Below, piece by piece: positions 11,456 through 14,429 of a DNA stretch of 64,000 nucleotides. How positions within the stretch are numbered: the stretch's first letter is position 1; each line of letters opens with the position of its first letter. Position numbers and translations under genes: made by a program. The stretch is from Polyangiaceae bacterium (GTDB lineage Bacteria; Myxococcota_A; Polyangia; Polyangiales; Polyangiaceae), in assembly GCA_020849655.1 (NCBI GenBank), contig JADLFU010000232.1:1-64000 (forward strand). The letters run 5' to 3'. Below the pieces are notes generated by a model that ran no database searches, had not been told where the DNA came from, and saw only the letters and a list, made by a program, of their open reading frames with translations.

Positions 11456-12369
11456 TGACACACAAACTTTCCTATCTTCTGCTCCTCGCGGTGGCCGGCC
11501 TCGCGGGCGCCTGCAACTCCGTGCTGGGCATCGACGCGGCGGAGGTCGACCCAGCGCTCGGGGCCGGGGGATCGACCTCGATGGGGGCGGGCAGCGGCGG
11601 CGCGCCTGGCGGGGCGGGCGCGAGCGGCGGCGCGACCGCGGGCAGCGGCGGGGCGGCCGCGGGCAACAGCGGCACCGCCTGCGACAGCTACTGCGACGAG
11701 GTGTCTGCCAACTGCAAGCAGGACAACGCTGTCTACACGTCGCGCAGCGTGTGCATGGTGATGTGCGCGAACTTCGAGCCCGGCGTCTCGGGCGAGACCA
11801 GCAAGGACAGCCTCGCCTGCCGCGCGTACCACGCGACGGCCGCGAAGGCGGCGCCCGCGCTCCACTGTCGTCACGCGGGGGTGCTCGGCGGCGGGGTGTG
11901 CGGCGACGATCCGTGCACCGCGTTCTGTCTGCAGGCGTTCGCGCTGTGCGCCGGCGCCAGCCTCGGCTACGTCAGCGAGGGCGACTGCCTGGCGGCTTGC
12001 AAGGGCAAGATGCAGTACCTGGGCGGCGACGGCGACGGCGACCTCAAGTACACGAGCGGCGACTCGCTCAACTGTCGGCTCTACCACCTCGAGTCGGCGG
12101 CGAACCCTGACAGCCCGACGGCGAAGGTCACGCACTGTCCGCACACCAAGGCCGACAGCACCGTGTGCTTCGACGCCGCGGGCGGCGCGGGCGGCTCGGC
12201 GGGCGCGAGTGGTGGTGGGTCGCCGGGCGCGGGCTCCGGGGGAGCGGCCGGCGCCGGAGCCTGGGCCGGCGCGGGTGGCCTGGGAGGACTGGGAGGACTG
12301 GGAGGACTGGGAGGACTGGGAGGACTGGGAGGACTGGGAGGACTCGGCGGCGCTGCCGGCGCCGGGTAG
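11455..12369 (+). CDS. Cys-rich lipoprotein with Gly-rich repeat tail
   Basis: 304 residues, start ATG 11455 overlapping the previous stop. The signal peptide ends in a lipobox (LAGAC). A Gly/Ala/Ser-rich linker leads to a Cys-rich domain (about 80-240) holding two related half-units, each with spaced Cys residues (CDSYCDEV..C, then CTAFCLQAFALC) and an ending with paired His and Cys (HCRH, HCPH). This looks like a disulfide-stabilised duplicated domain. The C-terminal tail is almost pure Gly/Ala with (GGL)n encoded by a 9-bp DNA tandem repeat. The function is unknown. It belongs to the Ser/Thr kinase operon and is probably exposed on the periplasmic or outer face of the envelope. Confidence 0.75.
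   Translation: MTHKLSYLLLLAVAGLAGACNSVLGIDAAEVDPALGAGGSTSMGAGSGGAPGGAGASGGATAGSGGAAAGNSGTACDSYCDEVSANCKQDNAVYTSRSVCMVMCANFEPGVSGETSKDSLACRAYHATAAKAAPALHCRHAGVLGGGVCGDDPCTAFCLQAFALCAGASLGYVSEGDCLAACKGKMQYLGGDGDGDLKYTSGDSLNCRLYHLESAANPDSPTAKVTHCPHTKADSTVCFDAAGGAGGSAGASGGGSPGAGSGGAAGAGAWAGAGGLGGLGGLGGLGGLGGLGGLGGLGGAAGAG
12283..12345 (+). repeat. 9-bp tandem repeat (ggaggactg)n inside a gene
   Basis: Seven consecutive 9-bp units (ggaggactg, the last ending in c) encode Gly-Gly-Leu in the lipoprotein tail; a variant unit ggtggcctg precedes them at 12274. Gain or loss of units would keep the reading frame, so it would change protein length rather than switch the gene off. The uniform DNA sequence suggests recent expansion. 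Confidence 0.9.
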
Positions 12370-12442
12370 CGCACCCAGGTCGATCACCCTCGGCCGGAAC
12401 CACCGTCGCGCCTCGGTCGTACGCACGCCGGAGGTTCGACAC

Positions 12443-13060
12443 ATGAACGACTCGGTGAGATGGATGTGCGCGTGGCCGCTCGCGCTGCTCGCGGCGTGCG
12501 GCGGTGACAGTGACAGCGCGACGCCGGCCCCCTCGGGCGGGGCGGGCGCCCGCGGGGCGGGCGGGGGCTCGGCGGGCGCGGGCGGGGGCGTCGCCGCGGG
12601 GGCGGCAGGGGCCGCGGGCAGCGCGCCCGCTTGCAAGGGCGTACAGGTCGGCAAGGGCGCCAGCTGCTCCGAGGAGATGTTCTGCAAGTACGGCGAGGCC
12701 GCGTTCTTGAAGGTCAACGATCTCATCATCGCGAAGGCCACCGCCAGCGGCATCGAGGCCAACATCGGCGACACCTTCACGAAGCTCACGCCCGAGAAGG
12801 CGGCCGTCTTCAAGGCCAACCTGGGGACGTTCCTCATCAACGCCTACGGCGGCGACAAGGCCGCCTACAAGTACCAGGGCAGCGACATGAAGACCGCCCA
12901 CGCGGGCCTCGGCATCACCCAGGCGCAGTACTCGGCGTTCGTTTCCATGGTGATCGTCCCGGCGCTGACGGAGGCCGGCGTCGCGGGGGACGACATCACG
13001 AACTGCTTCGCGCCGCCGATCACCAGCGACGCCTTCATGAAGGACATCGTCACCAAGTGA
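12443..13060 (+). CDS. Lipid-anchored truncated-hemoglobin-like protein
   Basis: 205 residues from ATG 12443. The signal peptide ends in a lipobox (LLAAC, Cys19), followed by a Gly/Ala linker to about residue 60. The C-terminal 120 residues match group I truncated globins: a helix leading to FL..AYGG, then a Y-x-G-x-DM stretch and MKTAHAGLGI, where His153 fits the proximal heme ligand. At the positions where group I globins usually carry a B10 Tyr and an E7 Gln, hydrophobic residues appear, although this alignment is by eye. Truncated globins are normally cytoplasmic; this one should face the periplasm. Heme binding is inferred, not shown. It is in the kinase operon, and its stop overlaps the next gene as GTGA. 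Confidence 0.72.
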   Translation: MNDSVRWMCAWPLALLAACGGDSDSATPAPSGGAGARGAGGGSAGAGGGVAAGAAGAAGSAPACKGVQVGKGASCSEEMFCKYGEAAFLKVNDLIIAKATASGIEANIGDTFTKLTPEKAAVFKANLGTFLINAYGGDKAAYKYQGSDMKTAHAGLGITQAQYSAFVSMVIVPALTEAGVAGDDITNCFAPPITSDAFMKDIVTK

Positions 13061-13743
13061 CCCGCGCGCGCGTCGCCGGCCTCGTCACCGCGGCGGTCGG
13101 GCTCGTGGGCGCCGTCGGCGCGCTGCACCTGCCCCGCGTGCAGGCTCGGCTCGGGGGGCTGGGGCGAGCGGTCTGCCCCGTCACACCGCTCGATCCCGCG
13201 TCCCGTGAAGAGGCGCGGCGGCGCGCGGTCGTCGGCCTGCGGGGCGAGGGCGCCGCGCCCGGGCGGCCCGCCCTCGGCTTCTCGCTCGGCGTGACGACCG
13301 AGGGCGAGGTCCGCGCGTGGGCGAGCCGGGAGCGCGTCGCCTGCGAGGACGCGCGCGGCGGCTCGACCGTCACGTGCGTCGAGGTCCCCGCGCGGTCGCG
13401 GTCGGCGGCGCGAGCGGGGAGCGGCGCCGCTCGCGTGTCGTTCCGGTTCGATCCAGCGGGGCGCCTCGCGGCGGTGGTCGCGGTCGAGGACTCGCTCACG
13501 CCGGGCGACGCCGTCGCCTCCGTCGAGCGCACGGGCGCGGCGCTCGAGCGCGCGCTCGGGCGACCGGCGGCGGTGACCGGCACGCTGGCGCCGGCGTGGG
13601 TCGCGGGCGGAGATCTGCGCCAGGCGCGGCTCGAGCACAGGTTCGCGGACTACTACGCGGCGGTCGCGGCGACGCGCGTGGGTCGCGCGGGCGCGGCCGT
13701 CACCGAGGAGTACCAGCTGCTCGCCACGCCGCCGGGCGGGTGA
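13057..13743 (+). CDS. Unknown exported protein, last in kinase operon
   Basis: 228 residues from GTG 13057, overlapping the globin stop by the GTGA pattern. The N-terminal hydrophobic stretch (about 7-24) is a signal peptide or anchor. The rest has beta-strand-rich segments ([20 protein letters not shown]) and two Cys residues in the middle, with no family I recognise. Coupling to the globin-like lipoprotein suggests the two function together in the envelope. The product may be periplasmic and anchored, or released. Confidence 0.6.
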
Positions 13744-13826: not shown

Positions 13827-14429
13827 ATGCCGTTCGTCAACTTCATGAGCCGTGAGATCAACTGCAAGCTGGTCTACTACGGGCCCGGCCTCTGCGGGAA
13901 AACCACCAACCTGAAGTTCATCTTCGAGAAGGCGAACCCCGACAACCGCGGCAAGCTGATCTCGCTCGCGACCGAGACGGAGCGCACGCTCTTCTTCGAT
14001 TTTCTCCCGCTCGATCTCGGCACCGTGCGCGGCTTCAAGGTGCGTCTCCAGCTCTACACGGTCCCCGGGCAGGTCTTCTACGACGCGAGCCGCAAGCTCA
14101 TCCTCCGCGGCGCCGACGGCGTCGTCTTCGTCGCCGACTCCCAGGAGATGCGCGAGGAGGCGAACATCGAGAGCCTGGAGAACCTCGAGGACAACCTGAA
14201 GGAGCACGGGCTGCAGCTCGACAAGATCCCGTTCGTGATGCAGTACAACAAGCGCGATCTGCCGGACGTCCTCCCCGTCGAGCACCTGAGCCAGACGCTG
14301 AACCCTCGAAAGGTCCCGGAATTCGAGGCCGTCGCGCACATCGGCACCGGCGTGTTCGAGACGCTGAAGGCCGTCTCGAAGCTCGTGCTCGCCGAGCTCA
14401 GCTCGGGCGGGTTCGCCAACAAGAAGTGA
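13827..14429 (+). CDS. mglA: MglA-like Ras-family GTPase
   Basis: 200 residues and very close to the MglA family throughout. Seen are the [20 protein letters not shown] start with P-loop at 19-27, [12 protein letters not shown], the switch-2 block [26 protein letters not shown] and the NKRD guanine motif. MglA controls cell polarity and drives gliding and type IV pilus motility in myxobacteria, with MglB as its GAP. No mglB-like gene lies upstream or elsewhere in the window, so this may be the main MglA encoded apart from mglB or a paralogue. It lies 83 bp after the previous gene, so it probably has its own promoter. Confidence 0.9.

Follow-up and report, generated by a model that had tools for sequence, protein, structure and literature searches.

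The window analysed here, a 64,000-nucleotide stretch of a Polyangiaceae genome, contains a gene for a predicted lipoprotein with a truncated-globin (trHb) domain (P0001), whose stop codon is overlapped by the start of a gene for a hitherto unnamed membrane protein, fam1. The first protein combines globin homology, a predicted globin fold and a lipobox with an invariant proximal histidine and apolar residues at positions B10, E7 and E11, and the two genes are strictly paired across Myxococcota. The pairing is the point that an earlier note on this DNA lacked: the globin gene is one half of a conserved two-gene unit. Together, P0001 and fam1 suggest a conserved gas-binding system in the bacterial envelope. 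It is possible, and is put forward here with reserve, that they represent a new two-component envelope haem system, widespread in Myxococcota, in which an exported, lipid-anchored globin with an apolar pocket works together with fam1 outside the cytoplasm, either sensing or transporting NO, CO or O2 or handing on haem. Bacterial truncated globins have mostly been studied as cytosolic proteins. According to a survey of the family, no trHb function is settled beyond doubt (PMC4720485).

Features of the globin–fam1 unit in the window
Feature	Position	Strand	Basis
Shine–Dalgarno-like GGAGG, 9–13 bases 5′ of the P0001 ATG	12430..12434	+	read from sequence
Lipoprotein truncated-globin gene P0001, 205 aa	12443..13060	+	ORF, ATG to TGA
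Signal peptide; its lipobox LAAC ends in C19, predicted to be lipidated	12443..12499	+	sequence; equivalent lipoboxes in relatives
Low-complexity Gly/Ala/Ser-rich linker	12500..12631	+	sequence; equivalent linkers of relatives differ in make-up
Group I (N) truncated-globin domain	12632..13057	+	family profile, Bac_globin matches, AF2 model, structure matches
Ile96, B10 (Tyr in cytosolic trHb1)	12728..12730	+	alignment
Phe123, E7 (Gln in cytosolic trHb1)	12809..12811	+	alignment
Leu127, E11 (Gln in cytosolic trHb1); Leu in 22/22 core relatives	12821..12823	+	alignment
His153, proximal F8 haem ligand, invariant	12899..12901	+	alignment
Partner gene fam1, 228 aa; GTG start overlaps globin stop (GTGA)	13057..13743	+	homologues beside lipoprotein globins; model pLDDT 91
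fam1 His24, invariant, directly after TM helix	13126..13128	+	alignment, model
fam1 Cys40-Pro41, invariant; C40 is the odd Cys of three	13174..13179	+	alignment
fam1 Cys96 (13342-13344) and Cys107 (13375-13377), both invariant; their strands are adjacent and a disulfide is predicted	13342..13377	+	alignment, model

The globin gene and its lipoprotein signal

GGAGG precedes the ATG of P0001, and the GC contents of its three codon positions, 0.60, 0.56 and 0.96, are those of a typical real high-GC gene. The globin domain is under purifying selection, with a dN/dS of 0.18 against a same-genus relative. The N-terminus, MNDSVRWMCAWPLALLAAC19-GGDS, carries by sequence a lipoprotein signal ending in LLAAC19, and equivalent lipoboxes are found in most P0001 relatives with a complete N-terminus; the description of P0001 as a lipobox protein in the earlier note is thereby upheld. 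These features suggest a protein that is lipid-anchored outside the cytoplasm through predicted lipidation. The residues at positions +2 and +3 after C19 are Gly-Gly. Under the E. coli sorting rule, Gly-Gly at these positions gives no inner-membrane retention, so an outer-membrane location is possible for P0001.

Globin family and fold

Evidence for a globin is weak for P0001 alone and strong with the family profile. The single sequence scores 16.1 bits against Pfam Bac_globin, under the cut-off of 21, and matches Mycobacterium tuberculosis HbN with an E value of 0.0018; single-sequence scans of Pfam and NCBIfam gave nothing significant. A profile of 22 aligned rows, built from P0001 relatives of the same class, finds HbN at E 1.3e-10 along with many other group I trHbs of the PDB, and 18 of its 22 members match Bac_globin themselves (best 4.6e-8). 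The AF2 model (pLDDT 85.1, pTM 0.81) has the trHb1 fold, and its best 20 Foldseek matches are all group I trHbs. The best structure match is the trHb1 of S. benthica, SbHbN (VIA Z 16.2, rmsd 1.5 Å, 115 aligned residues), with which HbN is tied (Z 15.7); Tetrahymena trHb is also among the best. Profile and model thus confirm the predicted domain as a group I (N) truncated globin with the 2/2 trHb fold. The earlier note had made this assignment, naming profile alignment and structure prediction as checks, and both bear it out.

A scan of genome contigs with P0001 as the single query returned only one related MAG, because such a query is narrow; no plasmid relatives were found. An NHLP/Os17 match from NCBIfam in one relative was isolated and was disregarded.

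The predicted haem pocket

Pocket positions were taken from the profile alignment to HbN rather than from model coordinates, using HbN numbering, which we take to be Y33 = B10, L54 = E7, Q58 = E11 and H81 = F8 and which fits the titles of PDB mutant entries. The hydrophobic residues placed by eye at B10 and E7 in the earlier note correspond to Ile96 and Phe123, and E11 (Leu127) is apolar too. The wider sample of lipoprotein-type domains numbers 65, made up of 22 core, 38 divergent and 5 solitary ones; some of these were classed by homology, as their N-terminus is cut off or the script found no lipobox. Tyr B10, Gln E7 and Gln E11 each occur in 0/65 of these domains; Glu or Thr stands at B10 in a few rows, which may be one-residue misalignments.

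The control set consists of 30 trHb1s of the same class, fetched with the cytosolic-type trHb1 of the same genome as the query; it replaced an earlier fetch by the Pfam model, in which few loci matched that protein. Tyr B10 is present in 28/30 controls, Gln E7 in 27/30 and Gln E11 in 27/30, although other cytosolic lineages may be missing because the controls were picked by similarity to one cytosolic protein. Two exceptions, L164 and L165, are lipoproteins themselves, judging by their N-termini. In a maximum-likelihood tree of 96 domains, computed from an alignment of only 133 columns, one branch (support 100/98) parts the lipoprotein from the cytosolic types. As judged from the alignments, all lipoprotein-type trHbs sampled have an apolar pocket, which is thus no local oddity. 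The distal pocket described earlier as possibly unusual is apolar indeed, but it is shared by 65/65 lipoprotein-type domains and by the TrHbN-2 subgroup (PMC11904497).

All 22 core relatives and all 65 lipoprotein-type domains keep the proximal His F8, and the residues surrounding it form a motif that is conserved across very divergent members; haem binding by P0001 is predicted from this residue. Reuse of the globin fold without haem, in a structural or binding role, would fit the changed distal residues and the slight sequence likeness of single members to known globins. Such a domain would not need His F8, and the conservation of this residue and its surroundings in very divergent members makes this reading quite improbable. 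The homology to HbN suggests a detoxifier of the NO-dioxygenase or peroxidase type, a role that has been proposed for cytosolic trHbs; however, the O2-stabilising residues of HbN are all replaced and no reductase was recognised adjoining P0001, so that such an activity appears very improbable indeed.

The partner protein fam1

The fam1 protein has a short N-terminal tail, one N-terminal TM helix and an α/β soluble domain. In its model (pLDDT 91.3), C96 and C107 lie on neighbouring strands, from which we infer a disulfide between them, and C40 is left over. Homologues of fam1 match the window protein with E values down to 1e-31. A comparison with Pfam families and PDB sequences gave no relative, only scattered chance matches, and no known enzymatic or signalling domain was found in Pfam, PDB sequences or the model. 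Fold matches to DcrB, PknH, BLIP, Rhs immunity proteins and others are weak and at background level; a toxin–immunity reading based on the RhsI1 match was rejected for that reason. In a comparison of two same-genus genomes, selection is looser on fam1 (dN/dS 0.51) than on the globin domain of P0001 (0.18).

Strength and variants of the pairing

Genome searches were made within the phylum Myxococcota. In gene calls around 20 relatives, fam1 is the sole recurrent neighbour family besides the globin, and a search with fam1 was positive in 54 of 318 genomes of the class, with more across the phylum. All full-length fam1 genes with flanking sequence in Myxococcota (40/40) adjoin a lipoprotein-type globin; a further locus at a contig end, L077, is outside this count. 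The globin lies upstream on the same strand in 38/40, often overlapping fam1 or within tens of bases of it; in the remaining two, it is downstream on the same strand (L104) or convergent (L099). The link holds in both directions, since searching with the globin was the first to turn up 21 of the 40 loci and searching with fam1 the other 19. Several fam1-adjacent globins are too divergent to be retrieved well by P0001 alone.

The unit varies in its architecture. Two globin domains per chain occur in the lipoproteins L006 (/L037), L085, L087, L103 and L104, at least three in the lipoprotein L092, and L081 has two globin–fam1 modules in tandem. Other Myxococcota families contain an outer ring of fam1-like lipoproteins that lack the TM/His/Cys-Pro part; seven of those examined (L090-L092, L095-L097 and L101) lie at most 1.5 kb from a multi-domain lipoprotein globin, and for L093, L094 and L100 no such globin was found within 1.5 kb. 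Solitary lipoprotein trHb1-like globins with an apolar pocket and no fam1 neighbour are represented by L026, L027, L029, L031 and L032.

The invariant residues of fam1 bring to mind an envelope haem relay or haemophore, in which the globin would carry haem and fam1 would be its membrane donor or acceptor. His24 with Cys40-Pro41, C40 being the odd cysteine, resembles a haem-regulatory CP motif, and the strict pairing fits such a role; CP and His are, however, present in many non-haem proteins. The distant fam1-like partners are without the motif, which therefore cannot be essential to every pair, and no haem-transport, TonB or cytochrome-maturation gene recurs in the neighbourhoods, where only fam1 does. 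A relay is accordingly considered unlikely.

Genomic surroundings

The gene upstream of P0001 is Cys-containing and lipoprotein-like and ends at 12369; a tandem 9-bp repeat (GGACTGGGA-type) at 12276-12345 encodes a Gly-Gly-Leu run at its end. Downstream of the globin–fam1 pair, at ~13850-14429, lies a gene for an MglA-like small GTPase, and the order globin–fam1–MglA-like gene recurs where contig L036, from the same genus, ends. Protein-kinase-like genes (fam2) near several modules vary in position and were set aside as coincidence. The genome itself has three further Bac_globin matches (L033, L034 and L035), of which one is trHb2-like, one is a cytosolic-type trHb1 (Tyr/Gln/Gln) and one is weak.

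Proposed function

The product of the first gene would be a haem globin held outside the cytoplasm by a lipid anchor, its distal pocket apolar throughout, and that of the second a membrane-anchored partner with its soluble domain predicted on the same side. P0001 would bind haem, probably in a five-coordinate state. Tyr B10, Gln E7 and Gln E11 hydrogen-bond O2 in the trHb family, and hydrophobic residues at these positions give a low O2 affinity, which is considered fitting for the transport or storage of O2 (PMC11904497; PMC4720485); the tight binding of CO and NO to haem depends little on its surroundings (PMC4720485). Lacking hydrogen-bond donors, P0001 would hold O2 weakly and let it go fast, and would bind NO and CO tightly. 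From these binding properties, the tethered globin, docked to fam1, may carry or buffer small gases reversibly within a two-gene envelope module; we adopt this reading tentatively, rating its chance a little below even. The existence of one- to three-domain versions of the globin suggests that binding capacity matters. On quantitative grounds, a storage role is doubtful where the periplasm is thin, and the domains recognisable in fam1 include no known enzymatic or signalling one that would indicate an output, both of which count against a carrier or buffer. The loss of hydrogen bonds in the pocket tells little about which gas matters.

The same pocket might disfavour O2 and pick NO or CO, the liganded globin then signalling through fam1. 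The apolar pocket of all lipoprotein-type domains and the dedicated membrane partner are in keeping with a sensor of this kind; fam1, however, has only a short tail before the TM helix and no known output domain, and no regulator recurs beside the pair, which leaves a sensor improbable. At the level of sequence, a carrier or buffer looks the same as a sensor or a haem relay, and the carrier or buffer appears the likeliest of the three.

Comparison with known systems

DcrB, PA1624 and PsbP-Mog1-like folds bear a weak C-terminal α/β likeness to fam1 (Foldseek E 0.012, prob 0.92), but there is no sequence match, the VIA Z scores (≤7.6) are at background and the TM-His-CysPro segment is uncovered. 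On the globin side, the cytosolic-type trHb1 of the same genome (L034/L136) belongs to the same domain family as P0001; it differs in having Tyr B10, Gln E7 and Gln E11, in showing no signal peptide and in falling on the other side of the tree branch.

HbN of M. tuberculosis (TrHbN-1; PDB 1IDR) is the best profile relative (E 1e-10) and shares the fold and His F8 with P0001. It has Tyr B10 and Gln E11 and no lipobox, and no fam1 partner is known for it; the Tyr B10 and Gln E7/E11 network that defines TrHbN-1 is replaced in P0001 by apolar residues at all three positions.

The hydrophobic B10, E7 and E11 by which TrHbN-2, a little-studied subgroup, is recognised (PMC11904497) are found in P0001 as I96, F123 and L127. 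SbHbN of S. benthica, a TrHbN-2 (PDB 8UGZ/7TT9; PMC11904497), has the same group N fold, His F8 and hydrophobic B10/E7/E11. Its identity to P0001 is ~20% and no fam1 partner is known for it; the chain in its crystals consists of nothing but a 116-residue domain, and the paper makes no mention of a lipoprotein, signal peptide, export or membrane (PMC11904497). The domain tree covered Myxococcota sequences.

Since apolar pockets are known from TrHbN-2, including SbHbN, the pocket alone is not new. A literature search for exported or lipidated trHbs found no description, though most subscription journals were outside its reach, so that this is no proof of novelty; the joint tie of an export signal, an apolar pocket and a fam1 partner is considered new. 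A clade that is consistently predicted to be exported, devoid of distal hydrogen-bonding residues and tied to one dedicated membrane partner offers a natural test of the function of apolar-pocket trHbs, and the two-gene unit provides a genetic handle on trHb function in cultivable myxobacteria.
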